A stretch of DNA of 64,000 nucleotides, from assembly GCA_001898385.1 (NCBI GenBank), contig MKTT01000086.1, positions 1 through 64,000 on the forward strand, given 5' to 3'. A program made the position numbers and the translations under genes. This stretch comes from Planctomycetales bacterium 71-10. Lineage in GTDB: Bacteria > Planctomycetota > Planctomycetia > Isosphaerales > Isosphaeraceae. Below are positions 14,711-45,218 of this stretch, piece after piece; the first letter of the stretch is position 1, and every line of letters begins with the position of its first letter. The notes below the pieces were generated by a model that did not search any database, was not told where the DNA came from, and saw nothing but the letters and a program-made list of their open reading frames with translations.

Positions 14711-15709
14711 TCAGGCCGATCGCCTGGATGTGAGGGCGGGGTGAGCGACGGCGGCCGATCGTGTCGCCTCGTACGCTGCTCCGCGTCCGAGGACGTCCTG
14801 GAGCTTGGAGAGAGCGGATCGTTCGATCGCCCTTAGCTGGTGGATCGGCATGCCGATCTCGGCGGAGAGTTCTCGGAACGTCCTGCATCCGTCGGATTTG
14901 GGGATAGGCGCGGCGACGACGCCGCCCTTGCGTCCCGGCTTCCCACGACCGACGGCCCGGGTCCCGACCAGGGCCTCCTCTAGTCGGTAGCGCCGCCGGA
15001 GGACCCAGGATTGGATCAATGTCAACTTGCGCAGGGCCGCGTGAAGGCGCTCCATCGATTCTGCGATTTCGAGGGGCTCCTGCGGGGGGGCCATACGTGC
15101 CAGCGCCGCATCGTGGGACGGCTCGCTGATGGAGCCCATGGACCGCGAGCGGAGTTCGCCCTGGATGTTGCGGAGGATCTTAAGCTTCCTCCCTTCGACG
15201 CCCATCTGCTCGAACACTTCTTCGAATTCCGGCTCCGTCCGTTCGATCGAGCCGCCAGTCGCCTGGCTCGCGGCCATCATCTCCTCGCGAGCCTTCTCGA
15301 ATCGGCGGCGAAGGAGGACCAGATAATAAGGGTAGCGAATGGTGGTGGACTGCTCTGCCACAACTCTTCGGATGCGGTACCGGATCCAGCAGGCGGCGTA
15401 ATTGACGAAACGCGTCCCGTGGGCTTCGGGATCGAAGTCGCTGGCCGCCCGGAGGAGCCCCAGGTTCCCTTCTTGGATCAGATCGTTGAGGTCGATGACT
15501 CGATTGCGCCCCCGGAACGCCGAGGCGATGTTCCGAACCAGCGGAAGATTGGCGAGGACGAGTTCCTCGCGGGCTGAAGGATCGCCGGCCTTGATCCGGA
15601 TCGCGAGTTGGAGTTCGCGTTCGGCGGAGAGCGGGTGCGAGCAGCCGGCCGACGCTCGCCTCTCCAGGGGGACGGGGCTGGAAGTCACGGACTCGATCGC
15701 GTCGATCAT
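14711..15709 (-). CDS. RNA polymerase sigma-70 family factor
   Basis: 332 residues from the ATG at 15709, which has GGAGAA 7-8 nt upstream. Region 2 is complete: LVLANLPLVRNIASAF, DLIQEGNLGLLRAASDFDP, RFVNYAACWIRYRIRRVV (the -10 recognition part). Region 4 starts at LTLIQSWVLRRRYRLEE and ends with an HTH (FRELSAEIGMPIHQLRAIERSAL). A basic insert of about 25 residues (AVGRGKPGRKGG and following) separates the two parts. Region 1.1 is absent, so it is an alternative group 2/3-type sigma. It is the last gene of the minus-strand block holding the phage-like genes and may direct transcription of that block or be a neighbouring host gene. Confidence 0.88.
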   Translation of the reverse strand: MIDAIESVTSSPVPLERRASAGCSHPLSAERELQLAIRIKAGDPSAREELVLANLPLVRNIASAFRGRNRVIDLNDLIQEGNLGLLRAASDFDPEAHGTRFVNYAACWIRYRIRRVVAEQSTTIRYPYYLVLLRRRFEKAREEMMAASQATGGSIERTEPEFEEVFEQMGVEGRKLKILRNIQGELRSRSMGSISEPSHDAALARMAPPQEPLEIAESMERLHAALRKLTLIQSWVLRRRYRLEEALVGTRAVGRGKPGRKGGVVAAPIPKSDGCRTFRELSAEIGMPIHQLRAIERSALSKLQDVLGRGAAYEATRSAAVAHPALTSRRSA

Positions 15710-15747
15710 GGCCAATTCTCCGGGGTTTGGGGAGGGTCGTCTCGGCT

Positions 15748-16185
15748 TCAATCCCGAGGATCGGAGGGAGACCAGATCACTCGTAGCCGAGGTCGGGCGC
15801 ATTCCCTCGCCGGCACCTGACTCCCATCCCGGGCCACGAGCTGAAGTCGCCAGGAGTCGCCTCCGACGGCATCGATGGCCTCCTTCGCGGTCGCGAAGGC
15901 CACGCTGCTGGGCACCCCGCCGACGCTCGTCGCCGATCGAACGTACCAGCGGCCCGCCCGATGTCCCGCGTCGAACTGCGATCGATACATCGGCGTGTAG
16001 ACGACGACGTCCTCGCCGGAGGGACGATCGTGCAGGCGGAAGGCCGCCATCGCCCGACGATGAGAGACGTGGGCCCGCGGGAGGGGAGGGGAATCGATCG
16101 GGGCGATCCGAAGCATGGCGAGGTCGCGCGAGGAGGAGGCGATCGATGGGCGTCGGCGATGGGTGAACGGTCGGGCGGGGGACAT
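15748..16185 (-). CDS. Hypothetical protein, 145 residues
   Basis: The start at 16185 has GGGAG about 6 nt upstream. The first 50 residues are basic and low in structure; the C-terminal part (VVVYTPMYRSQFDAGHRAG, RWYVRSATSVGGVP and VAFATAKEAIDAVGGDSW) looks like a small folded domain. No family recognised. It ends 38 bp before the sigma-factor start and may be co-transcribed with it. Confidence 0.5.
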   Translation of the reverse strand: MSPARPFTHRRRPSIASSSRDLAMLRIAPIDSPPLPRAHVSHRRAMAAFRLHDRPSGEDVVVYTPMYRSQFDAGHRAGRWYVRSATSVGGVPSSVAFATAKEAIDAVGGDSWRLQLVARDGSQVPARECARPRLRVIWSPSDPRD

Positions 16186-16252
16186 GGCGAACTCCCGGGA
16201 TGGTGCCGAGGTCGGCGGGGTGTGCTCGAATGAACGAAGGAGGCGGCTTAGG

Positions 16253-17011
16253 CTATGAGGGGCTTCGGCGGGTGGTCTTCCGCGGATGAACGGCCCGAGT
16301 CCAGTAGAAGCCGATCGAGTGCTCGTCGGTGGCCGCGCCGGCCGGGGGAAGTTCAAACTCGGCGGGATCCATCGACAGGTGATGCAAGACCTTCGACGCG
16401 CCGTCGCCCGGTCGGACCGCCCGGCCGATGACGGACGCCACCCAGCCTATGAGAGCGGGCCGGCGGATCACCGTCTCCAGCCACGTATAAGGCCGCTCGT
16501 CCGACGCGAACGCGAGATCGGCGACGAGGCGGTTGGCGTCGTCGCGATCACCGGCGTCTCGGCGGAGCAACTCCAGGACGAAGGCGGTCCAACGCCAGTC
16601 GAGCCGAGCACCATCGAGACGCGCCCCGGTCGCACAGGCGTTGTGGAGGTTGGCTCCCGCGAAGTCGGCCCCGCGGAGGTCGGCCTGTCGGAGATCCGCG
16701 TGGCGAACATCCGCCCGCCGCAGGTCGGCCTGCCGGAGAGTCGAGCCGCGGAGATCGGCGGAGATCAGCGAGGCCGTGCGGAGGTCGGCACGCAGAAGGA
16801 TCGCGCCCGGAAGGCTTGCGGCTTCGAGATCCGCCCCGCGGAGGTCGACCCCCTGAAGGTGGCGCCAAGGAGCCTCAAGCCCCTTCAGGTCGGCGTGGGC
16901 GAGCGACACGCGAGCCTTGGCGATCCGCTCGATCGCCAGACCGGAACTCTCGGCCTCGACCAAGGCCAAGATCCCGGTCTCCCAGCGTCGGAAGAATGTG
17001 TAGATAGCCAT
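16253..17011 (-). CDS. Pentapeptide-repeat protein
   Basis: About 252 residues from ATG 17011 (GTG 17050 is possible). Residues roughly 40-130 contain tandem A(D/N)LXX repeats, for example VDLRGADLEAASLPGAILL and ADVRHADLRQADLRGADF, which form a right-handed quadrilateral beta-helix. The remaining C-terminal half is alpha-rich without repeats. Some members mimic DNA and inhibit gyrase (MfpA, Qnr); most have no known role. It lies between the sigma gene and the phage-like genes, on the same strand. Confidence 0.85.
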   Translation of the reverse strand: MAIYTFFRRWETGILALVEAESSGLAIERIAKARVSLAHADLKGLEAPWRHLQGVDLRGADLEAASLPGAILLRADLRTASLISADLRGSTLRQADLRRADVRHADLRQADLRGADFAGANLHNACATGARLDGARLDWRWTAFVLELLRRDAGDRDDANRLVADLAFASDERPYTWLETVIRRPALIGWVASVIGRAVRPGDGASKVLHHLSMDPAEFELPPAGAATDEHSIGFYWTRAVHPRKTTRRSPS

Positions 17012-17137
17012 CGTGTCCAGTTCCGCGACGAGGAGGGGCGATGCGACCACTTTCGTCCGAGGGGGGCCGGAAACGCCAAGAGGGCGCCCCGCGGTGAGGC
17101 GAGGCGCCCGGGGGACGCGGCGCGGCCTTCGCGCGGC

Positions 17138-18318: not shown

Positions 18319-19314
18319 TCAGGGGTGATCGCGCTCGCGAGTCGGGTCGACTTGCGCCCCGGGCGGGTCGTCGCGGACGATGTAGGTGGGCCGTCCTTTG
18401 ACTTCGAGGAAGATCAGGCGGATGTATTCGCCGATGATCCCGAGGCTCAGCAGTTGGACTGAGCCCATGAAGAGGACGATGACGGCGGTGCTGGCCCAAC
18501 CCGCGGGGGATTTCCCGTAGGCGAACGCGTCGTGGAAGATCCAGATCAGCAGGGCGGACGCCACGCCCACCGCGGCCATGCCCAGATAGGTCGCCAGTCG
18601 CAGGGGCCGGCCGCTGAAGCTGATCAAGCCGTCGATGGCCAGGCCGAGCAGGCGACGGAAGGTGTATTTCGGCGAACCGGCTCCTCGCGGCGGTCGATCG
18701 TATTCGAGGCCGATCTGTCGAAATCCTACGAAGGACCTCAGCCCTCGGATGAATCGCATCCGCTCTGGCAGATGGTTGAGGACGGTGACGACCTTGCGAT
18801 CCATCAGGCAGAAGTCGCCGCTGTCGAGCGGGATCTCCATGTCGCTGATCGCGTTCAAGAGGCGATAGAACACGAAGTATCCCAGCCGCTTGGGCCAGGC
18901 TTCCTCACGCCGGCGTCGTACCGCGTAGACGACCTCGAATCCCTGACGCCACTTCTCGATCAGGCTCGGGATGAGTTCGGGCGGATCCTGCAAGTCGCCG
19001 TCGATGACGACGATGATGTCGCCACGAGCGTGATCTAGGCCCGCCGACACTGCGGGCTGATGGCCGAAGTTGCGGCTCAGGTGCAGGGCGATGATTCGTG
19101 GGTCGCGATTAGACAGGCGGTCGATCAGCATCGGAGTCGCGTCGCGGGCTCCGTCGTCGACCAGGACGATCTCGTAAGGCTGCCCTGTCGCCGAGAGCGT
19201 CGTCGTGAGTCGCCCGTATAAATCATCGAGGTTTTCCTCCTCATTGTAGAGGGGGACGACCACGCTGATCAGGGTGGCTGGCCCACGGGGGGAGACCGGT
19301 GGCTGATCGATCAT
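18319..19314 (-). CDS. Family 2 glycosyltransferase with C-terminal membrane helices (GtrB/DPM-like)
   Basis: 331 residues from ATG 19314. The GT-A fold starts at ISVVVPLYNEEENLDDLY, with VDDGARD and the metal-binding IDGDLQDPPEL (DxD-like), then LNAISDMEIPLDSGDFCLMD. Two membrane helices close the protein (ATYLGMAAVGVASALLIWI and AVIVLFMGSVQLLSLGIIG). The family transfers sugars from nucleotide donors to undecaprenyl or dolichyl phosphate. In phages, GtrB homologues change host surface glycans. Here it sits directly downstream of tail genes on the same strand, which fits such a role but does not prove it. Confidence 0.88.
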   Translation of the reverse strand: MIDQPPVSPRGPATLISVVVPLYNEEENLDDLYGRLTTTLSATGQPYEIVLVDDGARDATPMLIDRLSNRDPRIIALHLSRNFGHQPAVSAGLDHARGDIIVVIDGDLQDPPELIPSLIEKWRQGFEVVYAVRRRREEAWPKRLGYFVFYRLLNAISDMEIPLDSGDFCLMDRKVVTVLNHLPERMRFIRGLRSFVGFRQIGLEYDRPPRGAGSPKYTFRRLLGLAIDGLISFSGRPLRLATYLGMAAVGVASALLIWIFHDAFAYGKSPAGWASTAVIVLFMGSVQLLSLGIIGEYIRLIFLEVKGRPTYIVRDDPPGAQVDPTRERDHP

Positions 19315-19422: not shown

Positions 19423-20151
19423 TCACTGAGTGACCGTGAACTTCGTGTAGCCCTGGGCCGACAGCGCCGGGCAGGATGTCGCCGTGTACTGCAGGAACAA
19501 GGGATCGCACGACTGCGCGGACGCCGTGAGACCGATGGGGGACGACCCCGGGCTGGAGCAGACGACGGGCTGGCCCGTGGGGCAGTGGCCGGCCACGAAG
19601 TAGGTCGCGGTGAAGGTCGCCGCACCGGAGCGGCAACTCAGGCGGAAGGAGATCTGATTGATGCACCCGGTCGCCCATTCATCGATGCCGTTGAAGACCA
19701 TCGGGGCCGAGTGGGTCCCCAACAGGTTGTTCGTCCACGTCAGGGTCAAGTCCCGGCGGGGCAATTTGCACCCGCCGCAGACGACGGTCGTCGGTCGTGC
19801 GCCGAATTCCGATACCCATCGGCCCCCGGATGCATAAGCGACTAGGACGTCGCCCGCCTTGGGCGCGAGCGAGCCAATCACGACGACCGGGATCGATCGC
19901 GATTCATCGGCCGTCAGACTCGCCCCCGCCCCCTCGGCTTCGGCCCCATCGATCTTCACCGGGTTCACCAGGAAGACGCGTTCGCCGAGGGTGGGGATCG
20001 CGCCGGCGTCGCGGACACGTCCGATGAAACGCGGCGTCACGGGAGCCGGCGAGGAGTCCAGTTCGGGAGAGCGGATTCGGCCGGTATGAGGCCCGGGGCC
20101 CAGGAGTTCGTCCCATCTTAGGCGCAGCGAGCGGAGCGGGTCGTTCGGCAT
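19423..20151 (-). CDS. Virion-associated-like hypothetical protein with domain shared with its neighbour
   Basis: 242 residues. The N-terminal half (VFLVNPVKIDGAEAEGAGAS, then SRSIPVVVIGSLAPKAGDVL and ASGGRWVSEFG) is clearly similar to the 108-residue protein encoded at 20196-20522, so the two are products of duplication. The C-terminal half adds a Cys-containing beta-rich domain (CGGCKLPRRDLTLTW, CINQISFRLSC, CDPLFLQYTATSC). Its place after the tail hub gene suggests a particle component. No family recognised. Confidence 0.6.
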   Translation of the reverse strand: MPNDPLRSLRLRWDELLGPGPHTGRIRSPELDSSPAPVTPRFIGRVRDAGAIPTLGERVFLVNPVKIDGAEAEGAGASLTADESRSIPVVVIGSLAPKAGDVLVAYASGGRWVSEFGARPTTVVCGGCKLPRRDLTLTWTNNLLGTHSAPMVFNGIDEWATGCINQISFRLSCRSGAATFTATYFVAGHCPTGQPVVCSSPGSSPIGLTASAQSCDPLFLQYTATSCPALSAQGYTKFTVTQ

Positions 20152-20195: not shown

Positions 20196-20522
20196 TCAAC
20201 CATCGTAACGGAAGGCCCAACGGCCCCCGCTGGAATGGATGATCAGCTTCGTCCCGACCGGCGGCGACTTGGAGCCGAGATTAAGCGCCATGATCGTGCG
20301 CGATGAGTCCACAGAGAAGGTCGCACTCGCGCCCTCGGTCTCCGGGCCGTCGATTCGCAAGGGGGTGCAGGCGTAGAAGGCGGAGGCGATCGTGGGGTAG
20401 TTCCCGCGCGCCATGGTCTGCACCAACACCGCCTCCGAGCCATGGAGACCGGCGGACGTCTGCCGTCGGACGGCGGAGGCGGCGTCTTCTTGCCTGCCTC
20501 GCATGACGCGGGCATCTGACAT
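20196..20522 (-). CDS. Small virion-associated-like protein, paralogue of the next gene's N-terminus
   Basis: 108 residues from ATG 20522. PTIASAFYACTPLRIDGPE, SRTIMALNLGSKSPPVGTKL and HSSGGRWAFRYDG align with the N-terminal half of the 242-residue protein encoded at 19423-20151. The longer open frame to 20624 runs into the end of the hub gene and is not favoured. Likely a small beta-barrel or OB-like module; function unknown. Confidence 0.55.
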   Translation of the reverse strand: MSDARVMRGRQEDAASAVRRQTSAGLHGSEAVLVQTMARGNYPTIASAFYACTPLRIDGPETEGASATFSVDSSRTIMALNLGSKSPPVGTKLIIHSSGGRWAFRYDG

Positions 20523-20551: not shown

Positions 20552-22672
20552 TTAGAAGCTCCGTTCGACGTCGACGTCCGAGAGCTCGATGACGGTCGCC
20601 TGGCGGTCGTCGGAGAACTCCCACGAAACGGCCGATATGATGGGGTAGGTTGGGGCTTCGCCCTGGGCCTCGCCGACGTTGGTCTGGAGCGCCACGTCGC
20701 GGCCGTCGATTCGGGCCACTCGATCACCGACCCGGTAAGCCGTGACGAGGCCGGGGAGGGTGGCCGATCCTACGGTCGCCGGCAATTCGTGGGCCGCGCG
20801 GAGTTGTCGCGCCCAGGCGACCGCTCGCTCGGTATCGTCTCTCGCGATCTTCGGCCCGGGGGTGGGATTGTGCAGCGAATGAGCGTAGACCGTCTCCAGG
20901 GCGAAGTGGTCGCGGGCGTCGACGCGTCTCCGGCGGGTGAAGGATGTGGGCGAGGCCGGTCGCGAGTCGACCGATGCCGGGAGCATCAGATCATCTTCGA
21001 CGACCGTCGTCAGACGGAGCACGAAGCGAGTATTCGGGGCCGTCGGGTTCGCCTGGCTGCTTACGCCTCGGAGCGTCCTGCTGGGCTCTTGCGGTTGGTC
21101 ACCCGTATACTCCCCGATCGCCCAGGTTTCGGGGTCTTCAGCCACCACATAGATCCCCAACCGATCCTCCAGGAGTTGCCATCCCCCCTCGATCGGCTGC
21201 CAGTTCCCCGTCCCGTCCCACAACCCCGGCGCCGGGCCCGTGTAATCGCGAGACAGCGCGAGTTGGGCCCTGAGCGGGCGGTCTTGCGAGTCGCGACTCA
21301 CCAGGAAGGCCGACCCGGCCCGCAACCGTCTAACGTAGGTAGGATTGCCCTGCTCATCGTCCGGGAACAGGTCCCCAAGGTCGAGCGAGGATTCCGACCA
21401 GGATGACGTCGTTGCCGCCCAATGGCCGTCGCCCGCCTCATCGGCGACGTAGTATCGGTACTTCCGACGGTCTTCCCCGTCGGCTGCGGCGAGGTTGGAT
21501 CGGAGGAATCGGACTCGCTGGACGGCCGATTCGTCCCCCGGGGAGGGAGTGAAGCCGGGAGCCAAGACGAATGAGGCCTCGACGCGGCGCTGGGCGGTCT
21601 CGACCGTCACGGCGTTCACGATCGAGCGTGAGTCTCGACGGAGGTGCAGGGAGGCGACGTTGCAACGAGCGGGGTTGAGGCCGGCCCCCGGCTTCGACAG
21701 GAGCAAATCGCGCAGGGGGCCTCCGCAATCGGCGTCTTTACGGTAGATTTCGACCTCGCTGCGCGGCGAGCCGTCCTCGCCTTCGGCCGTCACGAATCTC
21801 ATCCCGAACCCTGTCAGATCCAACTGATCGGCGAGGGCTTCGGGCCAGGCCTTGTTCGTCGCGTCGTAGTCGCGGACGACCACGTCCGCGGCCGTGCCCC
21901 ACCCGATCGGATTCGCGCCGGGCGCCGGTCCCTTCGATTGGAGCAGCGCGTCCAGGCGGTCGAAGTCGGGGTTCTTGACGAACGCCTGGTCGTTATGCAC
22001 GGCGAGGATATACCGGACCAGCTTTCCGAGGGTCCAGTAGGTCCTGGGATCGGGATCGCGATCGAGGTCCGGATCGATGAAAACGGGATAACCAGTCGAT
22101 GCGTCGGATCGCCCGATGTCGGCACCGTCCGGAGTGCAGTTCGGCCTCCCGTCGGGGTTGAAGCGGGCGGGAAGTTGGACGAGCACGGCGTCGCCGTCCT
22201 GGGGCGAGTCGGCATGACGCTGGAGGCGCCCGCCGATCGGCTCGTCCCAGCACCGGATCGCGACCCCCGTCGCGAGGAACGAGATCCGCTGGGAGTGCGG
22301 ATCCAGGTCGATCTGCGGGGCCTGAGCGAATCCGTCGAAAAGGATCCGAGATTCGCCATGGTGACCGATCGCCAGGACGACGAGCCGGTCGTCGTTCCTG
22401 ACGACGTACGGACCCGCGGCACCCTGAGGCCACAGTCGGCCGAAGTCGACCGGGGCGGGATCGGAGGGGGCCGCGTCGTCAAGGATGTAGCGGAACCAGG
22501 CCGTCGGTGCCTCGGGTCCTTCCACATAACGGATCCGCTCGCAGGTCACGTTCGGGAGCACCGTGTAGGCGGCCCCCCCCGCCCCCCCCGCATCGTAGCG
22601 GCAGACGCGGACCGTCGCGGCCGGGCTCGACAACGGCACTTCGTACGGGTCGAAATCGAAGCTCGCTGGCAT
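20552..22672 (-). CDS. Tail hub/tip-like phage protein
   Basis: 706 residues with no signal peptide. It begins with a beta-rich domain (VRVCRYDAGGAGGAAYTVLP) containing FRYILDDAAP and VVLAIGHHGESRILFDGFAQ, reminiscent of the Tal/hub proteins that describe coordinate-like rings at the tail tip. It continues with a charged middle and a C-terminal region with RVGDRVARIDGRDVAL and ISAVSWEFSDDRQATVIELS, as seen in gp27/gpJ-type hub proteins. It follows fibre and tip genes in the tail module. The assignment rests mainly on size and position. Confidence 0.55.
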   Translation of the reverse strand: MPASFDFDPYEVPLSSPAATVRVCRYDAGGAGGAAYTVLPNVTCERIRYVEGPEAPTAWFRYILDDAAPSDPAPVDFGRLWPQGAAGPYVVRNDDRLVVLAIGHHGESRILFDGFAQAPQIDLDPHSQRISFLATGVAIRCWDEPIGGRLQRHADSPQDGDAVLVQLPARFNPDGRPNCTPDGADIGRSDASTGYPVFIDPDLDRDPDPRTYWTLGKLVRYILAVHNDQAFVKNPDFDRLDALLQSKGPAPGANPIGWGTAADVVVRDYDATNKAWPEALADQLDLTGFGMRFVTAEGEDGSPRSEVEIYRKDADCGGPLRDLLLSKPGAGLNPARCNVASLHLRRDSRSIVNAVTVETAQRRVEASFVLAPGFTPSPGDESAVQRVRFLRSNLAAADGEDRRKYRYYVADEAGDGHWAATTSSWSESSLDLGDLFPDDEQGNPTYVRRLRAGSAFLVSRDSQDRPLRAQLALSRDYTGPAPGLWDGTGNWQPIEGGWQLLEDRLGIYVVAEDPETWAIGEYTGDQPQEPSRTLRGVSSQANPTAPNTRFVLRLTTVVEDDLMLPASVDSRPASPTSFTRRRRVDARDHFALETVYAHSLHNPTPGPKIARDDTERAVAWARQLRAAHELPATVGSATLPGLVTAYRVGDRVARIDGRDVALQTNVGEAQGEAPTYPIISAVSWEFSDDRQATVIELSDVDVERSF

Positions 22673-22694: not shown

Positions 22695-23486
22695 TCAGCC
22701 GAGCAGGCCCATCGCCTTCAGGTCGTTGATTAATGCGTTGAGCAGTTGCGTCGTGTTCTCTGCGAAGGCTCTCAAGTTCTCGTACGACGCCCTGAGGCTG
22801 TTGAGATCGGTGACCTGGGCGTAAAGAGCGCCCGTCTGGCTCGAACTCAGGCCCGCGAATGAGGTCGACGAGATCGCCGGGGAATAGGCGGCCAGGCTTC
22901 GAGAGGACGCTGCATATCCCTGGATGTAAGGCCCCGGTCGGGTGATGGGGGCGGCGTTCCAGAACCCGAGTTTCTGGGCGGTCGAGGTGCCGATCTTGAG
23001 CCCCGAAGATGAGCCGGCCGCGAACGAGGCCCCGTCGTTCATGGCTCCGCCGGCCGCGGTCAAGAAGGGCCTGGAATCGCTGCCGACCGTTCCGCATACG
23101 ACCCGCACATCCGTCACGCTTTCGACGGCGGACGGGCCGGTGGTCACCACGGCCAGCGGGACGTGCGAAGTCTGCGGGAAGCCGGAGGCCGAGGTGGTGA
23201 GGTCGCCGGAATCGGTCAAATAGACGTAATGCGTCGAATTGGCCGACAGATTGACCGGCGTCGAACCCCCGAATTCGCCGACGGTGCCGTCGCGGCGTTG
23301 AAAGCGTCCCGCCGCGACCTGGATTCGGAGGGAGATGCTGGGACGCTCGACCGGAGTGGCGCAGAGGCCCCCGATCGGCGCCAGGTCGTCGAGTGCGTCG
23401 GAGTTGGCGTTCAGCGGTACGTTCCACTCGCGCTCGGCCGGGCCCGGTTTGGCGAGCTTCGCCCGCGGAGTATAGGTCGTCGCCAT
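22695..23486 (-). CDS. Tail-fibre-like phage protein
   Basis: 263 residues from ATG 23486. The N-terminus (NVPLNANSDALDDLAPIGG) and THYVYLTDSGDLTTSASGFP are typical of phage fibre or appendage proteins. The C-terminal region carries GLKIGTSTAQKLGFWNAAPI, the KLGFxxAxP motif common in phage capsid-decoration and tail-fibre proteins, followed by a helical end (LRASYENLRAFAENTTQLL). Likely a trimeric appendage. It is 19 bp downstream of the Fn3-like gene. Confidence 0.6.
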   Translation of the reverse strand: MATTYTPRAKLAKPGPAEREWNVPLNANSDALDDLAPIGGLCATPVERPSISLRIQVAAGRFQRRDGTVGEFGGSTPVNLSANSTHYVYLTDSGDLTTSASGFPQTSHVPLAVVTTGPSAVESVTDVRVVCGTVGSDSRPFLTAAGGAMNDGASFAAGSSSGLKIGTSTAQKLGFWNAAPITRPGPYIQGYAASSRSLAAYSPAISSTSFAGLSSSQTGALYAQVTDLNSLRASYENLRAFAENTTQLLNALINDLKAMGLLG

Positions 23487-31404: not shown

Positions 31405-31463
31405 GAGGGGGGAGCCGGGTGGGGTGGGTACGGCCGGGAGGCGGCCTCGTCCCTCCGCACCAC

Positions 31464-37824: not shown

Positions 37825-38490
37825 TCAGACCAGGGGATGCAGGCCGAACGACTGGTACTGGTTCTGCCGGTCCTTCCACTGGTCGACGATCGCTTCGAGC
37901 GAGCCGGGCTGGCCCCCCCGGGGGGCGGCGTATGGCCGCGAGGCGTCACCCCCCGCCCCGCCACGCGACGTCGCTGCGAAGAAGATCGCGAACTGCGGCG
38001 AGTCGAGACGCTCGCGGAGGGCCTCCGAGGCGGGTCGGCCGCTGGCCCGCTCGCGTACTACCAGGGCCCCCGACGCCTCGCGGACCGTCTCGAACTCGTC
38101 CTGGAGGAGCCTCCGGACCATCGTCGCGGCGGCCGAGCGCTGTTCCGGCGACTCGCCGACGAAGGCCCGACCCTGGAGGGCCTCGGCGATGGCGGCCGAC
38201 TTCCGCTCGCCGAACACCTGCTGCTCGAGGAGCGTATAGCGGGAGACCGCCTCGGCGTGCTTCCGCTCCCACGACCTGCGCTGCTGCTCCAGCGCCTCCT
38301 CGATCTGCCCCTTCTCCGCCAGGGCTCGCAGCCGCTCCTGCTCCTTCATCTCCAGCGCCGCATCCTGCCGACTCTGGACTTCCCGCAACTGCGCCTCCAG
38401 GGCTCGCAGCCGCTGGCGCTCTTCACCTTGCGCCGGACCGCCCGGCTGGCCGGGGGCCGGATTGACATCGGCGTTCGCTTGCTCGCTCAC
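37825..38490 (-). CDS. Capsid scaffolding protein
   Basis: 221 residues, highly charged and helical: RLRALEAQLREVQSRQDAAL, LRALAEKGQIEEALEQQRRS and TLLEQQVFGERKSAAIAEAL. The first 20 residues and the end are disordered, and the last 40 residues (SLEAIVDQWKDRQNQYQSFG) could bind the capsid protein. Gene order portal, scaffold, capsid supports the call. Confidence 0.75.
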   Translation of the reverse strand: MSEQANADVNPAPGQPGGPAQGEERQRLRALEAQLREVQSRQDAALEMKEQERLRALAEKGQIEEALEQQRRSWERKHAEAVSRYTLLEQQVFGERKSAAIAEALQGRAFVGESPEQRSAAATMVRRLLQDEFETVREASGALVVRERASGRPASEALRERLDSPQFAIFFAATSRGGAGGDASRPYAAPRGGQPGSLEAIVDQWKDRQNQYQSFGLHPLV

Positions 38491-38557: not shown

Positions 38558-40159
38558 TCAACGTCGCGCCCCGGTGTCGAGCCCGAGGTACGCTTCGATC
38601 TCGGCGTCGAATTCGCCGTAATCCGAGTCGTCCAGGCCGGGGAGCATCACCCGGATGAGCTTCCCGAGCATTTCCCGCTCGGTCTTCGGTGCGTGGCCCG
38701 CCGCCCCCAGGATGGCCTGGAACTGGCCCACGGTCCGGGCCAATTCCTCGCCGGTGAACAGGTCGAAGGACGACGGGTACTGGACCCTGACGGCCGCCCG
38801 CTCCTCGTGCGTGGGCGCGGCTCCCATCACCGCCAGGGCGAGGTCGGCCAGCCGTCGTTCCACATGGCCCAGGGTGGCCGCAACCTTGCTCAGCAGGTCG
38901 TTCCCCGCCGCCTGATCGATCCGCTTCGAGACGCCGCTCTGGGACACGGTCGAGCCGCTCGTCCCCGCGGTCCCGGCCGGCTTCAAAAGCAGCGCGGCGC
39001 GGTCGGCCGCGTCGCGGAGGTCTGCCTTGTTCATCCGCAGGGAATCCGCCCCCTCCTTGGGGAACTGGATGACGTCGAACCCCTCGTAGGTCGCCGCGCC
39101 TCCCTGGGCGTTCTTCTTCTTGGGCAGGAGCCAGTTGGGCCCGATCGGCACGGCCCCGTCGGCCTTGACGTAATCCTCGGGGCCCTGAAGGAGCGGGTGG
39201 GCCTGCGTGGTGTCGCTGAGGATCAGCTCGCTGTCGCGGTTATAGTACTCGCGCTGGATCTCGGCGATGCTCTCGTATCGCGGAAGCCCGATGTTCCGGC
39301 AGCGAGGCCGCCGACGATCGAACACCCGGATGATCGGCACGCGACCGTATCCATGCTCGACGGGCCCGCGGGCCTTCTCGCCGCGCTCATCGAACAGCGT
39401 CCAGGAGCGTTCATCCCAGTGGCGCCAGGAAACGCCGCCCCGGTCGTCGACCTCTCGGATGAGGCATTCGAGATACCGCCCGCCGCGGTCGAGCCGCCAC
39501 CAGACCATGTTCTCCGGCAGGACGTACGAGGCGACGCAGGAATCGAGCCCGAGTCGGATCTCGTCGGCGCGGGTCCGCACCGCTTCGCCGTCGGGGGCGG
39601 CCGGGCGGTCGACGATTATGTCGAGCTGGCCCAGGACGAGGAGGAGTGGGGCGATCGAGCCGGCCATGAAGTCGTCGATCGAGGCCCCCCGGCCGTCGAC
39701 GTCTCGCCACCAGGAGGTCAGCGGATCGGGCCCGGCGCGGCGCACCTCGCGGCTGTAGATCCGGGCCAGATGGGCTTCCACCGCCTCGGAGACGAAGGTC
39801 GGGACCGGCGTCCGGGCCCGGCGCAGCTCGTAGTCGTCGTCCGTCGCCTGGTGGGCCGGGTCGGTGCCGAACGGCCGCCCGCTCGGGGGATACGCCCCGG
39901 AGTCGAGGGAAGACGGATATTCCCGCTTGTGTCGGACGAGGTTCCGCACGGGCATGCCGTGCATGTCATATCCGTAGACGGCGGTGCGGTACGCCTCGCC
40001 CCCCTCCCACGAGTCGAGCAGCCATCGCCAGCGGAGATGATGCGCCTGCCACTCGGGATGGGGCCGGTCGAGTCGCCGGCCGTCCGGCAAGGCGATCCGA
40101 GGCATCGCCGCCCCCGGCGCCGGATGGACCGACGCGCCGATCGTGTTCGAAGTCAGCAT
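38558..40159 (-). CDS. Portal protein
   Basis: 533 residues. The N-terminal WLLDSWEGGEAYRTAVYG and PTFVSEAVEAHLARIYSREV, then PLLLVLGQLDIIVDRPA and YGRVPIIRVFDRRRP, match DUF4055-type phage portals. The stem and crown helices lie in YESIAEIQREYYNRDSELIL and AGNDLLSKVAATLGHVERRL. The portal is the dodecameric DNA gate at one capsid vertex. It follows terL by 48 bp. Confidence 0.8.
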   Translation of the reverse strand: MLTSNTIGASVHPAPGAAMPRIALPDGRRLDRPHPEWQAHHLRWRWLLDSWEGGEAYRTAVYGYDMHGMPVRNLVRHKREYPSSLDSGAYPPSGRPFGTDPAHQATDDDYELRRARTPVPTFVSEAVEAHLARIYSREVRRAGPDPLTSWWRDVDGRGASIDDFMAGSIAPLLLVLGQLDIIVDRPAAPDGEAVRTRADEIRLGLDSCVASYVLPENMVWWRLDRGGRYLECLIREVDDRGGVSWRHWDERSWTLFDERGEKARGPVEHGYGRVPIIRVFDRRRPRCRNIGLPRYESIAEIQREYYNRDSELILSDTTQAHPLLQGPEDYVKADGAVPIGPNWLLPKKKNAQGGAATYEGFDVIQFPKEGADSLRMNKADLRDAADRAALLLKPAGTAGTSGSTVSQSGVSKRIDQAAGNDLLSKVAATLGHVERRLADLALAVMGAAPTHEERAAVRVQYPSSFDLFTGEELARTVGQFQAILGAAGHAPKTEREMLGKLIRVMLPGLDDSDYGEFDAEIEAYLGLDTGARR

Positions 40160-40207: not shown

Positions 40208-41788
40208 TCAGAACACGCGGCCGGCGCGGGCGCGGCGCAGGGGGCGCTCCGCGGGCGCCGTCCCTTCGGGCAGAGCGACGCTCAGGCCGCCTCGGAGCGC
40301 GTCGACGAGGTCCTCCCATGGATGCTGCGGGTCCGCGGGGTAGTCCATCCACTGACCCGCGCGGCGGGCCCTCGCGTAGCCCTTGAGCGACGCGGAAAGC
40401 TGGGTGCAACGCGGGTGGATCAGCAGCCGCGGCTCCCCGTCGGCCGTACGGATGAGGCTCTCGATGAGGTTCAGCCCTTCGATCACGCATCCCGGATATC
40501 GGGGCCATGGTTGCAGCCCCGTCTCGCCGACGAGGCCGCACCTTTGGAACTCCGAGATGACGGTCGGGCCGACGGGGTTCCTGGCCCCGCCGGCCGAGTC
40601 GGTGGAGACGAACCGGGTCGCCGAGCCGCACAGGCGGTCGAGCATCTCCCGGATTTCCAGGGCGCACGTCTCGGCCGAACGACCCTCGGCCAGGTAGTCC
40701 GCGAAGACGTGGACCCGGGTCGGCTTAGGGGGATCGGCCCACTCCCAACCGCGATGGATCTGGAACGCCACCGCCCCGGTGAATACCCCCGAATCGATCG
40801 CCGTATGAACCGGCAGCGATGGGTCGAACTCGGCGGCCTCGGAGACGTTCCGGGCCTCGTCGAACTCCTTGAACCAGGCTCCTTCGGCCTTGGGGCCGCG
40901 GCAGAGATAGTCGCTGGCGAAGACCCGCGGCGAGACTCCTCGGACCTTCTGGATCAGCGCGTCGATCCCGTAATGACCGTCGCTCCTCTTGGCCTTGGGG
41001 CGACCTTGCGGGTCGTCGTCGCGGCCTTCATGGCACCAGGGCATCAGCGGACATCCCGGGCATTTCTCCAGGTCCGGGCCGCTGCGCGAGGTCGGGCAGC
41101 GTTCGAGGACTTCGAAGACGCAGTAGCTGTGGAGGGGGAAGGCCCCCGCGCGGGCCCGGTCGACGAGGTCGGCCATCGGGCCCGCCGGGCGATGCCAGGT
41201 CGACGTCATCAGGACGCTCGCCCGGACCCCCCGCAGGTCCATCGCCATGCCGATCGCCGACTCGCGGATCTCCGGATCGATCTCGTCGACCTCGTCGAGC
41301 TTCAGCGAGGCGACGTGAGGGCCGCGGACGCTCGTGGGGCTCGCCGCGAGGATCGCCACCCGAGAGCCGTTGGCGTAGGCCGCCTCCGTCTTGAGCAGCC
41401 GTCGGATGGAGCCCCGATCGCCGCCCAGCGTGCCCGAACCATCAAGGACCAGGGCCTGGATGGCCCGGTAGATCTGCTCCGACTGGGCCCGCGACCCCCC
41501 CAGGACGTGGGTCTCGTGGCGCGGGTTGAATCGGCTCGTCAGGTGCGTGTCGAGCGCCGAGAGGAACGACTTGCCGCTGCCCCGGGGCCCGTGCCAGAGC
41601 GCCAGCGACGGGCGGTCGAGGACCTGCGAGGCGAACATCTCGAACGGGGAGGAATGCCCCGGGCAGACGGCCCGCGACGGGATGCGGACGCCGGCGAAGG
41701 CCTCGGCCCAGGCGCGGAGGTCATGCCTCGATCGGGGACGCCGATCGCGCACGGAACTAATCAAGCGAGCGATCGTCGACCCGTCCAC
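40208..41788 (-). CDS. Terminase large subunit
   Basis: 526 residues. The ATPase has Walker A (WHGPRGSGKSF, about residue 66) and Walker B (LKLDEVDEI, about 168), followed by a coupling-like VLMTSTWHRPAG motif. A four-Cys insert (CPTSRSGPDLEKCPGCPLMPWC) is unusual and may bind zinc. The nuclease half has HTAIDSGVFTGAVAF and FVSTDSAGGARN, with acidic residues for two-metal cutting, and HPWEDLVDALRGGL near the end. The enzyme pumps DNA into the head. Its start overlaps the small-terminase gene by 32 bp. Confidence 0.88.
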   Translation of the reverse strand: MDGSTIARLISSVRDRRPRSRHDLRAWAEAFAGVRIPSRAVCPGHSSPFEMFASQVLDRPSLALWHGPRGSGKSFLSALDTHLTSRFNPRHETHVLGGSRAQSEQIYRAIQALVLDGSGTLGGDRGSIRRLLKTEAAYANGSRVAILAASPTSVRGPHVASLKLDEVDEIDPEIRESAIGMAMDLRGVRASVLMTSTWHRPAGPMADLVDRARAGAFPLHSYCVFEVLERCPTSRSGPDLEKCPGCPLMPWCHEGRDDDPQGRPKAKRSDGHYGIDALIQKVRGVSPRVFASDYLCRGPKAEGAWFKEFDEARNVSEAAEFDPSLPVHTAIDSGVFTGAVAFQIHRGWEWADPPKPTRVHVFADYLAEGRSAETCALEIREMLDRLCGSATRFVSTDSAGGARNPVGPTVISEFQRCGLVGETGLQPWPRYPGCVIEGLNLIESLIRTADGEPRLLIHPRCTQLSASLKGYARARRAGQWMDYPADPQHPWEDLVDALRGGLSVALPEGTAPAERPLRRARAGRVF

Positions 41789-42062
41789 GGGCTGCCTCCA
41801 GGATCCTGCTGGCCGTCTCGTCGTCGACGATCATGCCGGACGAATCCGCCGCCACTCCCGTCCCGGCGCGGCGGAACAGCACGCTCCATGAACGGGCGTC
41901 GCCCCTCGCGGCGGCGGCGACGAGGGCCTCCGCCACGCGTTCGCCCCACGTCCGCTTCGGATCGTCGCTGGGCATGCCGAGGATTCCGCGGAGGCGGTCG
42001 TCGAGGCCGACGGCCTCGGCCTCGTCGTCGGCCCGCGGGCCTGCGACGCCGTCGCCAATCAT
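41757..42062 (-). CDS. Putative terminase small subunit
   Basis: 101 residues from ATG 42062. WGERVAEALVAAAARGDARS resembles the C-terminal helix of DUF5681-like small terminases. The frame extends upstream without clear need, so the ATG was chosen. It precedes and overlaps terL, the normal place of the DNA-recognising subunit. An N-terminal HTH is not evident, which weakens the call. Confidence 0.5.
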   Translation of the reverse strand: MIGDGVAGPRADDEAEAVGLDDRLRGILGMPSDDPKRTWGERVAEALVAAAARGDARSWSVLFRRAGTGVAADSSGMIVDDETASRILEAARGRVDDRSLD

Positions 42063-42079
42063 GTCTTCACTCCAGGGGC

Positions 42080-42376
42080 CTAGTCGCGATCGAGGTCTGC
42101 CGCCGCCGACGGGTCGTAGGGGACCCGGGCGAGGATCTCCTCCAGCTTCCGGGTCACGTCGAGCCGCCAGCGCCTCTCGTCCATCCTTCGCTCGACGTCG
42201 ATCTCCGCGCCGTCCCCAGACCCGCGGCCGATCGAGCGGGCCTGCCGCCCCAACGCCTGGGTCAGCACCATGATCGCCGCCCCCGTCAGGCAGATCGTCG
42301 CGATGAGCCCCGGGACCCCGCCGCGACGTCTCGCCGCCCATACCTGAAACGCAACATGGATGTGTTTATTCGTCAT
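42080..42376 (-). CDS. Small single-helix membrane protein (lysis-region)
   Basis: 98 residues. One hydrophobic helix (GLIATICLTGAAIMVLTQAL) is followed by an acidic and basic helical tail (IDVERRMDERRWRLDVTRKL). Topology fits a spanin- or holin-like accessory. Its start overlaps the end of the next upstream gene by 11 bp. Confidence 0.5.
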   Translation of the reverse strand: MTNKHIHVAFQVWAARRRGGVPGLIATICLTGAAIMVLTQALGRQARSIGRGSGDGAEIDVERRMDERRWRLDVTRKLEEILARVPYDPSAAADLDRD

Positions 42377-42725
42377 GCGGCTGGTCTCGGAAGGGGCCGA
42401 TCTCGGGGGCGGGCGGAAGCGCCGGGTCGGCGGCGCGGGCGGCCTTGATCCAGCCCAGCAGGGCCGCCACCACGGCCTCGGCCCGGTCGGCCCGAGATCG
42501 GATGCGCAAGGCCGCCAACTCGTGCTCGCGTTGCTTCTGCCTGTCCTGCCAGAAATCCTTCGTGAAGGCCGAGACGGCCGCGATCAGCCCCGCCCCCCCC
42601 AGGAGGAATGAGCCCGCGCCGACGGCCGGCTCGCTGGAGACGGATTCGGCGATCAAAGCCGTGGTCGTCGCCGCGAGCCCTCCCATGTACGCGAGGTTCT
42701 GGGAGACGTCCGGGAAGTAGCTCAT
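42366..42725 (-). CDS. Small membrane protein with two hydrophobic segments
   Basis: 119 residues. Two apolar stretches (MGGLAATTTALIAESV and AGSFLLGGAGLIAAVSAF) precede a basic helical tail (QKQREHELAALRIRSRADRA) and an acidic end. Topology fits a holin or antiholin. No family recognised. Confidence 0.5.
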   Translation of the reverse strand: MSYFPDVSQNLAYMGGLAATTTALIAESVSSEPAVGAGSFLLGGAGLIAAVSAFTKDFWQDRQKQREHELAALRIRSRADRAEAVVAALLGWIKAARAADPALPPAPEIGPFRDQPHDE

Positions 42726-42794: not shown

Positions 42795-43013
42795 TCAATC
42801 AACTGAGGCGCGGGGGCCGGCCGCGGCGGCGTGCAGGCCGAGGGCGCCGGCCCCGCTGAAGAGGACGAGTAGGGCCTGGCAGATGGTCTCCAGGCCCCGG
42901 TCGTAGTCCTTGGCCAGGATCATCCCGATTCCGGAGATCGTCGCGGCGACGACGGCCGCGTAGGTCTTGTAGTTGCGTAGGATTTTGAGGGCGACGCCGG
43001 CGGCGGTGCTCAT
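42795..43013 (-). CDS. Holin-like small membrane protein
   Basis: 72 residues with two membrane helices (TYAAVVAATISGIGMILA and QALLVLFSGAGALGLHAAAA) and a short basic N-terminus, the size and topology of class II holins. It lies between a cysteine peptidase gene and the terminase genes. Holin function is an inference. Confidence 0.5.
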   Translation of the reverse strand: MSTAAGVALKILRNYKTYAAVVAATISGIGMILAKDYDRGLETICQALLVLFSGAGALGLHAAAAGPRASVD

Positions 43014-43035
43014 GGCTCGATGACCTTTCCGCGGT

Positions 43036-43311
43036 TCAAAACTCGGGGACGAGCGTCCATAGCGATTCCGACGCGAGCATCAGGATCGCCGTCACGGCCA
43101 GGAAGAGCAGGAGCAAGCGGTCCTCGTCGTCGATCGCTTCGATGCGGGATCGGTGCGGAGAAGAGTGAGACGGATCGAAGCGGATGCGAGGTCGGCGAGA
43201 TGGGGGGTCAGGCGGCCTGATGATAGCTCCAGTGCTCCGGGAGCGCCCTCGCCGCGAAGCGGGGAGCCCCGGCCAACGCCCAGGAATCCCCTTGCGCAAG
43301 CATGCCTTCAA
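43036..43311 (-). CDS. Possible very small membrane peptide
   Basis: Only the last 35 residues look coding: acidic then a single helix (RLLLLFLAVTAILMLASESL) ending TLVPEF. The upstream part overlaps the peptidase gene and is basic low-complexity. No ATG, GTG or TTG sits just before the plausible part, so this is uncertain. It could be one more lysis-region peptide with an unusual start. Confidence 0.25.
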   Translation of the reverse strand: MKACLRKGIPGRWPGLPASRRGRSRSTGAIIRPPDPPSRRPRIRFDPSHSSPHRSRIEAIDDEDRLLLLFLAVTAILMLASESLWTLVPEF

Positions 43312-44107
43312 TGACGGACTTGTCGGCCCAGAAGCTGTAGCTCGGCTGGTCGAGGGCGAGCGGCCCGGTCGGTTCCTCCGGCCCCCAACTCTGGAGGATG
43401 CAGGCTCCCGGGCGGTCGGCTCGCAGGCCGCCGATCAACATGCAGTGGCCCCAGGAGCCTTCGGGGGCGCAGAAGCCCTCGGCGTCTCGCTCCATCGCGA
43501 AACCCTGGGTCGAGCACACGGTGACGGGATAGCCGTTCTTCATGGCCGCGAGCAACTCGGCCCAGGTCGTGACCCGGGCCGCGGAGCCGATCCGCATGCC
43601 GGCCGCCCTGGCCTTGATCTCCGCGGGAACCCCGTCTCGCCCCCAAAGCCTGGCGCGCTCTCCGTCGTAGGGGCCTTCGCAGCCCAGGGTCTCGCGACTC
43701 GCGACGCCGATCGTCGACATGGCCGAGACGGCAGCGGAGCCGTAGGAACCGTCGCGGCCCCCGAGGATGCCGGCCACTTCGCGGGAGATCCCATAGATGA
43801 ATTCGGTCGACGACTCGCGGAAACTCATGGCCGCGCCGAGGGCGATCTCGACGCACTGAAGCATGTCCAGGCCGTGGCCGTGCCCGTGCCCCACGCAGTC
43901 GCCGATCGCCTGCTCCGGATAGGCCGGATAGGCCCCCAGCACGTCCCGGAACGCCTTATACAGGAGGATCGGCCCGCCATCGCCTTCATCCCCCACGAGC
44001 GCGGGGGCGGCCCTGGACAGCGTCGGCCGCCACTCGGCGAAACTCCGCTGGATCTCATCGGTTCCGAGCCAGCCGTCGACGAACGGGGATCGCTTCGGAT
44101 CGCTCAT
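43208..44107 (-). CDS. Papain-like cysteine peptidase, candidate phage lysin or prohead protease
   Basis: 299 residues from ATG 44107. The papain-fold active site is visible: Gln66 and Cys71 in QAIGDCVGHG, a catalytic His in GSWGHCMLIGGL, and the third position in LQSWGP, where the usual Asn of NSWG is Gln. FIYGISREVAGILGGRDGSY matches the second helix region of C1-type enzymes. No signal peptide, as expected if a holin exports it. Its place beside small membrane proteins suggests a lysis role; planctomycete walls contain peptidoglycan, so peptide cross-links are a possible substrate. Maturation of the capsid is an alternative. Confidence 0.65.
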   Translation of the reverse strand: MSDPKRSPFVDGWLGTDEIQRSFAEWRPTLSRAAPALVGDEGDGGPILLYKAFRDVLGAYPAYPEQAIGDCVGHGHGHGLDMLQCVEIALGAAMSFRESSTEFIYGISREVAGILGGRDGSYGSAAVSAMSTIGVASRETLGCEGPYDGERARLWGRDGVPAEIKARAAGMRIGSAARVTTWAELLAAMKNGYPVTVCSTQGFAMERDAEGFCAPEGSWGHCMLIGGLRADRPGACILQSWGPEEPTGPLALDQPSYSFWADKSVIEGMLAQGDSWALAGAPRFAARALPEHWSYHQAA

Positions 44108-44148
44108 GGGGCATTCCTCGATGCGGAGGACGGCGTCGGGCGGCACGC

Positions 44149-44607
44149 TCAATCACCGGACGCGAGGCCGGCGGCGAACTCGCGCCACAGGGCTGCGAGC
44201 GATGCCCGGTCGGAGATCGAGGTTTCGGAGGCGGGCTTCCCTTCGGGGACGACGGCGGAGAAGTAGGGGGCGACCTTCTGGTCGAAGAGCGAAGTCCGCC
44301 CGGCCTTCCACGCCTTCTCCACCACGCCTAGCGCCTCCGCGATCCCCCGGCCGGACTCCAGGGCCTCGGCCCCGTCCAGCCACGCGGTGGCGTAAGCGGA
44401 GGCCAGGCCCCTGGGATAGCCCCGGCCGATCGCTCGGATGCTCGGGCCGGATGAATCGGCCGGCAACGAGGTGCGAGGAGGTGCCAGGATGCTGACCCCC
44501 CACGCGCTGACCGAGGCGACCAGGACCGTCGGCAGCCACCTCGCGACACCCCGGACCGACGCCGAGATGAACGGGATCGCTCTCACGCGGAATCCCGAGT
44601 GCGACAT
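44149..44607 (-). CDS. Anchored protein of unknown function, 152 residues
   Basis: A hydrophobic N-terminal segment (WLPTVLVASVSAWGVSILAP) after a basic start acts as a signal anchor; the rest is helical (AYATAWLDGAEALESGRGIA, ISDRASLAALWREFAAG). GAGGA-type SD is about 10 nt upstream. Overlaps the previous gene by 25 bp. Could be a lysis accessory. Confidence 0.5.
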   Translation of the reverse strand: MSHSGFRVRAIPFISASVRGVARWLPTVLVASVSAWGVSILAPPRTSLPADSSGPSIRAIGRGYPRGLASAYATAWLDGAEALESGRGIAEALGVVEKAWKAGRTSLFDQKVAPYFSAVVPEGKPASETSISDRASLAALWREFAAGLASGD

Positions 44608-45218
44608 GTCTTCTCATCCTCTTTGCATTGGCGGGAATCGCGAGGCGACTTGGAGCCCTCGACGGCCGTCGAGCCCGACTTGAAGATGCGAGACCGTCGC
44701 TGACGTCGGGTCTCGGCCTCGACCGGGGCGACGGGAGATTTCGTTTCGTTCGGCCGCCGCGCCCGGCGAGAATTCGACTCGGGCCGGGGATCTGTGGCGG
44801 GATCTCGGGCGAGGGCGGGATGGCCGTCCATCCCCGAGGCCGAGCAGACCATGCAGCAGAGGAGCGACCCTTGCCGAATCGGCCCGTGGTGCGGGCATGG
44901 CGAGGTCGGTGTGAACGGCCCTACGGGGAAGAGGGGGACCAACTCCAGCCACCACGGCGTCCGCGACGCCGCCGAGGGCGACTCGACCGCCATGCCGTCA
45001 TCGGTCGGGATGGCCGAATCATCAAGTGAGTCCCGCGTTCGGGAATCTCGCTCCTTGCGGGCACGGGACAGCGCCCTCCGCAGGAGCTGGACGCTCACGC
45101 CCGATTCTTCGGCCAGTTCGACGGTCGGCCTGCCGGCCTCGTGGAGCCGCAGCCACTCCTCGTCGCGGAGGGCCCGGATCTCGCCCATGGCTCGCACTCG
45201 ATCGGTGGGTCCCATCAT
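44583..45218 (-). CDS. HTH protein with Cys/His-rich motif at the head of the phage-like operon
   Basis: 211 residues. AGGAGG lies 5 nt upstream of ATG 45218, fixing the start. The first 60 residues contain an HTH (EWLRLHEAGRPTVELAEES, GVSVQLLRRALSRAR). The centre carries CPHHGPIRQGSLLCCMVCSA, a compact metal-binding knuckle (two His, four Cys) that I associate with planctomycete proteins. The C-terminus is basic and disordered. As first gene of the block it may regulate it or help recognise DNA for packaging. Confidence 0.6.
   Translation of the reverse strand: MMGPTDRVRAMGEIRALRDEEWLRLHEAGRPTVELAEESGVSVQLLRRALSRARKERDSRTRDSLDDSAIPTDDGMAVESPSAASRTPWWLELVPLFPVGPFTPTSPCPHHGPIRQGSLLCCMVCSASGMDGHPALARDPATDPRPESNSRRARRPNETKSPVAPVEAETRRQRRSRIFKSGSTAVEGSKSPRDSRQCKEDEKTCRTRDSA

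Follow-up and report, generated by a model that had tools for sequence, protein, structure and literature searches.

A vertically kept tailed-phage locus in Isosphaeraceae planctomycetes as a candidate gene transfer agent

Tailed-phage genes fixed in bacterial chromosomes are known from PBSX of Bacillus, a defective-phage particle with a sigma-like control gene, and from gene transfer agents (GTAs), of which few lineages of origin are known. GTAs are defined in one account as packaging host DNA rather than their own genes (PMC7947584), and the formal GTA families listed in another cover alphaproteobacteria and spirochaetes (PMC9953437). RcGTA (Rhodogtaviriformidae), whose small terminase is described as having no specific DNA-binding domain (PMC7947584), is a short-tailed particle encoded by a head-tail cluster that is inherited with the host without mobility genes. 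The particle genes of BaGTA of Bartonella, a system with a run-off replication region, are vertically kept in the clade, and some members keep phage-derived replication genes (PMC3610622); the absence of DNA replication genes is given elsewhere as a criterion for GTAs (PMC11841831). Here we describe a block of phage-like genes at positions 14711-45218 of a 64,000-nucleotide window, the first 64 kb of an 87.9-kb contig (MKTT01000086.1) from the 7.73-Mb genome of Planctomycetales bacterium 71-10 (Isosphaeraceae). An initial annotation made from the letters had described a one-strand block of about 30 kb, and gene calling bears this out, with all 34 genes on the minus strand (Table 1). On balance, the block is probably a domesticated tailed-phage locus that is vertically kept and that most likely works as a GTA.

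The block resembles RcGTA in being a short-tailed head-tail cluster inherited with its host without recognised mobility genes, and the predicted fold of its tail tube resembles the GTA particle tube (6tba, Z 8.1). It differs in its SU10-type capsid and in its presumed control, where a helix-turn-helix (HTH) protein, a sigma factor and 22-bp sites would take the place of the RcGTA regulators. No homology to Rhodogtaviriformidae was detected: phmmer searches of solved structures with capsid and portal matched no GTA chain, and PF17236 was the sole Pfam match of the capsid at E<=0.05, although these were single-sequence searches that leave room for remote kinship. RcGTA provides a precedent for a small terminase untied from specific DNA binding. 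The likeness to BaGTA lies in the vertical retention of particle genes in a clade and of phage-derived replication genes in some members; the difference is that primase-like and helicase genes here stand at the end of the particle block, with an altered Walker A motif in the helicase, and that this genome has none. The genes of PBSX are unrelated to the block as far as seen. A search of the open-access literature (as distinct from subscription papers and preprints) on planctomycete GTAs and on Isosphaeraceae or Paludisphaera phages returned nothing on such a locus, which agrees with the statement of the initial annotation that no GTA is described in planctomycetes. An intact prophage whose large terminase (TerL) is near RcGTA-like ones has been reported in Zavarzinella formosa (PMC7947584).

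The block occupies the same chromosomal place in related genomes, all of the same family, in which G000 denotes the genome analysed, other G numbers its relatives and g numbers genera. It is present in all six genomes of the genus and is colinear in G029, G032, G030 and G028 of the genus, in G001 and G002 (g2), in G020 (g13) and in G022 (g14); in G031 it is split over two contigs. Distances from TerL agree within about 1 kb in G029, G032 and G028 and are up to about 2.5 kb shorter in G030; spacing in G001, G002 and G022 is close to that in the genus, while in G020 the genes keep their order but lie further apart. The uvrA gene adjoins the block in five of the six genus genomes and is inverted and about 20 kb away in G028. 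The genes at 54636 and 55036 flank the block in G001 and G002 too. Downstream, an M32 carboxypeptidase gene (c84) is found in G028, G030, G031, G032, G001, G002 and G021, and in G022 and G023, like G021 members of g14, it is inverted and 38-42 kb off; this genome has no c84, and the gene that comes next here (13003) lies after c84 in G030, G031 and G032. These shared flanks (uvrA, c84, 54636 and 55036) point to one locus common to three genera; in g13 just one flank gene speaks for it. Thus the uvrA-adjacent position that the initial annotation had proposed to look for in relatives was found, and the patchy presence among close relatives that it had named as contrary evidence was not. In G029 (L072), transposase-like genes, read by eye, occupy the position where the block would otherwise end with its sigma-factor gene.

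Beyond the genus, TerL matches (E<=1e-5) occur in 35 of the 45 family genomes, full length in 30 (15 of 21 genera) and as the nuclease half only in five; among the 26 genomes with completeness >=90% and contamination <=5%, 20 have full-length TerL. A class-wide search that scored at most three candidates per genome returned TerL at E<=1e-20 in 35 of 397 genomes, all within the family, and in none of the 352 elsewhere. Against 50,697 phage records TerL had no match, and the portal matched three Pelagibacter phages at about 25% identity. IMG/VR holds 34 related loci, five of them with TerL identity of at least 66%: one of the five carries uvrA (L037), another carries flank genes (L040) and three are too short to tell. 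The lower-identity loci may be true phages. The L037 and L040 contigs, filed as viral, are fragments of host chromosome that include the block and its host flanks.

Comparison of RpoB trees with block trees in two sets, against 20000 random trees, indicates inheritance with the host; the RpoB sequences of G000 and G043 are partial. In lineage I (nine genomes, ten proteins; G031, whose tail lies on another contig, the prophage G030b described below, capsid, scaffold and fast genes left out), four of six splits are common to both trees, the two unshared host splits have ultrafast bootstrap values of 35 and 40, and 19 of the random trees reached this agreement. In lineage II (twelve genomes, four proteins), seven of nine splits are shared and no random tree did as well, with one well-supported host split (G011 + G026, 99/97) not recovered. 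The ratio of nonsynonymous to synonymous substitution rates (dN/dS), which the initial annotation had suggested as a check, was estimated in four species pairs by a counting method without a tree and indicates purifying selection: it is 0.05-0.3 for most head and tail genes. In all four pairs dS of block genes falls in the range of neighbouring host genes (in G031/G032, 0.58 for TerL, 0.52 for portal, 0.27 for capsid and 0.44 for uvrA). The exceptions to low dN/dS are the fibre-like genes (0.39-0.44 for the beta-helix protein at 33370..34884, 0.25-0.58 for the fn3 protein at 31464..33359 and 0.60-0.95 for the 1344-aa protein), the tape-measure slot, the candidate small terminase (0.38-0.75 in three pairs), several small genes and 25589 (one value of 0.41). 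TerL active-site motifs are intact in all 24 aligned sequences. As in GTAs, then, the particle genes are inherited with the host at a fixed locus, and the structural genes are intact and under purifying selection. At the level of genes, the comparisons establish one ancestral locus with intact packaging, head and tail genes under purifying selection and, in this genome, without recognisable mobility or replication genes.

Profile searches with PHROGs (all 34 genes) and Pfam (24 of the 34) recognised no integrase, repressor, recombinase or replication gene in the block, as the initial annotation had it, nor any gene for integration or excision, which GTAs likewise do without; since many block genes match nothing, this is a statement of none recognised, not of none present. 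The contig has no match to tyrosine recombinases (PF00589) or resolvases (PF00239). An integrase just outside the block, which would have spoken for a mobile element, was not seen either: in the five genomes with complete PF00589 match lists (72 rows), none lies within about 160 kb of the block, the nearest being at G029:C2:1724101, and a PF00239 search of nine genomes found none near the blocks, though it detected the prophage in G030. The longest exact repeat shared by the block ends is 11 bp, compared with 9-15 bp in 200 shuffles, and candidate attachment (att) repeats were rejected as chance-level, in line with the failure to see any by inspection. Integrase, att repeats, patchy presence and varying sites, which characterise an active temperate prophage, are thus not features found in the block.

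The prophage in G030 provides a direct comparison. G030 has the block as well as a second particle-gene copy, G030b (G030:C15), which shares the TerL (57% identical), portal, capsid, tube and hub families. G030b differs in carrying two recombinases, one tyrosine (phrog_1, 1.7e-31; PF00589, 32.2 bits) and one serine (PF00239, 105.8 bits), many small accessory genes and an ordinary-looking tape-measure-like protein of 512 aa, compared with low-complexity proteins of 205-405 aa in that slot of the nine lineage I blocks.

The initial annotation's remark on missing replication genes holds for this genome but not for seven relatives (G028, G030, G031, G032, G021, G022 and G023), which keep a P4/D5-type helicase gene at the block end, downstream of the sigma gene. 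The helicase matches DUF5906, Pox_D5 and TIGR01613 (phage/plasmid primase P4 family; 130.2 bits, cut-off 108.7). In six of the seven it is preceded by a primase-like gene, the G021 contig ending before that position; the primase-like protein resembles the N-terminal part of fused primase-helicases and has no family match. The helicase gene is absent from this genome and was not found beside the block in G029, G001, G002 and G020. The Walker-A lysine is replaced by arginine in all seven block helicases and retained in all 12 unlinked copies examined, one of them in G022, a comparison that leaves out some weaker unlinked matches. The block helicase may have lost ATP hydrolysis. The idea that the primase-like protein is inactivated as well, because of a tryptophan where histidine is expected, was dropped, as unlinked fused homologues also have tryptophan.

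Two exact 22-bp sites, 255 bp apart, lie in the 323-bp interval that separates uvrA from the first block gene, against 0.10 expected in the whole window. With at most one mismatch, the site occurs exactly twice per genome and at this place only in G000, G029, G030, G031 and G032, at a spacing of 248-257 bp in the five species. None of the remaining 40 family genomes, among them G028, has the site, and a search with the reversed pattern returned nothing in the family. The only exact matches in IMG/VR are a pair 254 bp apart in contig L037/L218, at the same locus. Across the five species that have the sites, the second HTH helix of the first block gene is nearly identical; G028 and G020 have a different one. 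We hypothesize that the product of this gene binds the sites, which might alternatively serve as a packaging or replication site.

Domestication of the block is well supported by these comparisons, and GTA activity is the likeliest function, in which case the particles most likely carry the bacterium's own DNA. A feasible model may be that the HTH protein (44583-45218), acting at the two 22-bp sites together with the block's sigma factor, switches the locus on in some cells, in which capsids would assemble. TerL and the small terminase, freed from a phage packaging site, would load the capsids with host DNA; the short non-contractile tail would be joined to the filled capsid, the producer cell would lyse, and the fast-evolving fibre-like proteins would select the recipient. 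The intact TerL motifs, the lack of recognised mobility genes, the shortened tape-measure slot, the fast-evolving, weakly conserved small-terminase candidate and the altered or missing helicase together make a GTA fit better than a phage.

Several observations weigh against this interpretation. Ten of the 45 family genomes have no TerL match and five only the half match, and G018 keeps the block without TerL, none lying between the lysis-type genes and the portal (L188, L177 and L178; G018:C17). The helicase gene of the seven relatives is under purifying selection (dN/dS 0.22-0.28). Between the genus and G020 or G022 the capsid is 44% identical and TerL 59-62%; in the head tree G030b stands beside g1+g2 (100/99), and in Mantel tests, computed with and without G030b and G005, capsid and portal distances track the host less well (r 0.42 and 0.48). 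Capsid divergence, G030b placement and these correlations suggest that head genes were exchanged with phages at depth. Finally, the fast fibre genes would also suit a killing particle.

A killing particle like PBSX, fixed in the chromosome, possibly packaging host DNA and beneficial through the killing of competitors by variable fibres, is the main rival of a GTA and would share much of the same anatomy, yet it seems unlikely. The three fibre-like genes are the fastest (dN/dS 0.25-0.95) and the most different between species, and the block ends in a sigma-like factor of its own, as PBSX has; on the other side, a DNA-free killer would have no need of the TerL motifs that are intact in 24 of 24 sequences, and no immunity gene was recognised. 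The presence of TerL, portal, scaffold and capsid also sets the block apart from tailocins and extracellular contractile injection systems, which are tails without head or terminase. It is improbable that the block is a stranded prophage, that is, a decaying insertion of old date, without its former integrase and retained only by chance. The replication gene absent here, the 3' part of the G029 block cut by insertion sequences (by eye), the lost TerL of G018 and the absence of tails in some genera would suit such decay, but reading frames are intact, the locus persists across at least four genera, and in four species pairs with dS of 0.3-1.6 dN/dS stays well under 1, a result that itself makes this explanation unlikely.

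Two further explanations have very little probability. A still-mobile phage or satellite relying on a helper or on a host recombinase would be consistent with the related complete prophage in G030 and with the primase-like and helicase genes kept in seven relatives; it is at odds with the same locus and host-like tree across genera, with the lack of an att-like repeat, and with the five viral contigs of high TerL identity, two of which have host flanks and three of which are too short to tell. Equally remote is phage interference, in which retained head genes would spoil particle assembly by related phages entering the cell: the purifying selection on head-only loci, which have no obvious route for DNA injection, is compatible with it, but it leaves the conserved tail and lysis-like genes of this genus unexplained and has no need of active TerL motifs. 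If the preferred reading of the block as a GTA is true, a planctomycete GTA of unrelated origin would mean that domestication for DNA packaging recurs outside alphaproteobacteria and spirochaetes. Because recombinase loss, the altered helicase site, replication-gene loss and tail loss can be mapped on one host tree, the stages of domestication are testable.

The head-only loci belong to a second chromosomal place. In seven other genera, related head genes have different shared flanks: phosphofructokinase upstream in g3, g6, g16 (16 kb off), g20 and g21, or the gene c35 downstream in g3, g8, g17, g20 and g21. The tail module is present at this second locus in some genomes (G043, G011 and G026). 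In g20 (four species, G039-G042), the locus is reduced to TerL, portal, scaffold, capsid and small genes of connector type, about 7.5 kb in all (e.g., L098:4124-10500), and TerL, portal and capsid have dN/dS of 0.06-0.16. Ordinary host genes flank this g20 cluster. The loci of g3, g17 and g18 add beta-helix or spike-like proteins, as read by eye. Hub and tube were found nowhere in the g20, g3, g17 and g18 genomes, in a search that unrelated tails would escape. The two chromosomal places might stem from separate domestications or from a single one that changed position. It is tempting, though rather doubtful, to speculate that the family fixed related packaging loci at two sites, that the genus of this genome has an independent short-tailed GTA with its own operator pair and sigma factor, and that g20 has a selected tailless capsid-terminase compartment without known counterpart. 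With a selected tailless DNA-packaging capsid in head-only loci, its purpose becomes a question.

The gene order is typical of a tailed phage: small upstream genes come first, then TerL, portal, scaffold, capsid and the connector region. Next are the variable fibre-like genes and the tail completion gene, the tube gene with two small genes after it, the tape-measure slot, and the tail proteins and hub. A glycosyltransferase gene, a gene for a pentapeptide-repeat protein and the sigma-70-family gene close the block. The labels small terminase (TerS), holin, chaperone, terminator, connector and tape-measure denote gene position or a by-eye reading. Of the complete head and tail set proposed in the initial annotation, profiles support TerL, portal, scaffold and capsid and predicted folds the tube and hub, with connector and chaperone placed by position only; its lysis genes stand as candidates, for which a by-eye reading gives a Cys/His/QSWG pattern and small membrane-spanning proteins, none with a family match. 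The sigma-70-family gene (14711-15709) and the GtrB-like glycosyltransferase (18319-19314) had gone unmentioned.

Table 1. Features of the block and its flanks (positions in the window; minus, reverse strand)
Feature	Position	Strand	Evidence
Upstream flank, double-length uvrA	45542..52075	minus	2177-aa product, UvrA domains duplicated
Upstream copy of 22-bp site, GTCGANCGAGGGCCGGGCGGGC	45486..45507	minus	Exact match, between uvrA and block
Second 22-bp copy	45231..45252	minus	Just before Shine-Dalgarno sequence of first block gene
First block gene, candidate regulator that may bind the 22-bp sites	44583..45218	minus	HTH and conserved Cys-rich region (alignment); weak PHROG matches: HTH phrog_4629, E 0.015; late transcriptional activator phrog_836, E 0.02
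Small protein, N-terminal hydrophobic stretch	44149..44607	minus	Position conserved; no Pfam or PHROG match
Candidate papain-like cysteine peptidase (lysis or maturation)	43208..44146	minus	By-eye motif; GDCVG, WGHCM, QSWG invariant in 10 sequences
Small membrane protein, holin-like by eye	42795..43013	minus	No family match
Small membrane protein	42366..42725	minus	No family match
Small membrane protein	42080..42376	minus	No PHROG match
Candidate small terminase, fast evolving	41757..42062	minus	Directly upstream of TerL; no PHROG or Pfam match
Large terminase TerL	40208..41788	minus	phrog_2, 3.4e-12; Walker A/B and nuclease motifs intact
Portal	38558..40159	minus	phrog_145, 4.7e-38
Scaffold	37825..38490	minus	phrog_206, 1.4e-7
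Major capsid protein, SU10 type	36616..37758	minus	PF17236 SU10_MCP, 140.8 bits; phrog_1328, 9.4e-21
Small protein after capsid gene	36180..36539	minus	Position conserved
Head-tail connector candidate	35452..36129	minus	Position, conservation; also kept in head-only loci; no family match
Small structural protein	34989..35444	minus	Weak: phrog_240 head protein; PF23140 fibre protein below cut-off
Beta-helix protein, spike-like, fast evolving	33370..34884	minus	PF07602, PF13229, phrog_4577
fn3-containing fibre-like protein, fast evolving	31464..33359	minus	Profile matches
1344-aa fibre-like protein, fastest evolving	27346..31380	minus	phrog_7578, phrog_1101
Tail completion/terminator candidate	26823..27278	minus	Position; related gene in head-only loci; no Pfam match
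Tail tube	26357..26773	minus	Predicted fold; best solved match siphophage tail tube, Z 10.2, 3.5 A, 107 residues
Gene in tail-chaperone position	25995..26300	minus	Position
Gene in tail-chaperone position	25589..26002	minus	Position
Tape-measure slot, short low-complexity protein	24623..25417	minus	Conserved C-terminus FRGR(I/V)DG
Tail protein	24233..24604	minus	Position conserved
Tail protein	23506..24201	minus	Position conserved; weak phrog_31
Tail protein	22695..23486	minus	Position conserved
Tail hub, gp27/gp44/VgrG type	20552..22672	minus	Predicted fold; Z up to 18.2; Foldseek E 5.1e-8; pLDDT 50.1 (modest)
Tail-tip accessory candidate	20196..20522	minus	Cluster c6; after hub in 13/13 tail-bearing loci compared
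Tail-tip accessory candidate	19423..20151	minus	Locus comparison
GtrB-like glycosyltransferase	18319..19314	minus	phrog_841, 1.3e-92; PF00535; restricted to genus
Pentapeptide-repeat protein	16253..17050	minus	PF00805
Gene before sigma gene, conserved	15748..16185	minus	Locus comparison
Sigma-70-family factor, last block gene, candidate late regulator	14711..15709	minus	PF04542; phrog_351; TIGR02937 over cut-off
Downstream flank, beta-lactamase-family serine hydrolase	13003..14571	minus	PF00144; also resembles phrog_382

Foldseek found nothing at E<=0.001 for the tube model (pLDDT 68.5, modest confidence), and type VI secretion Hcp proteins have the tube fold too, at similar Z, so that the tube assignment leans on gene order as well. 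Searched by sequence against solved structures, none of the hub, tube, connector, cysteine-peptidase candidate, portal, TerL and primase-like protein had a useful match; the cysteine-peptidase candidate (43208..44146) also had no match in Pfam, PHROGs or NCBIfam, its PDB matches being at chance level only. Rfam at gathering thresholds returned nothing between 14000 and 46000, and ARAGORN detected neither tRNA nor tmRNA genes in the window. The host-like base composition noted in the initial annotation holds for overall GC (0.690 in the block, 0.69 and 0.71 in the host) but not for third codon positions (GC3), where the block is lower (0.862 vs 0.928), a difference that we count as a weaker point.

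Some smaller observations concern individual sequences. Residues ~70-127 of the capsid and ~490-559 of the 1344-aa fibre-like protein match the same PHROG families, 7578 and 1101, which suggests a common small domain. Four related loci (L033, L034, L035 and L036) filed as metagenome-assembled genomes of Mycobacteriaceae and Candidatus Kuenenia carry these planctomycete genes, and their titles look mislabelled. Long plus-strand open frames at 27451-31539 (1362 codons) and 46142-49762 (1206 codons) lie opposite real genes and are most simply explained by GC-rich codon usage.

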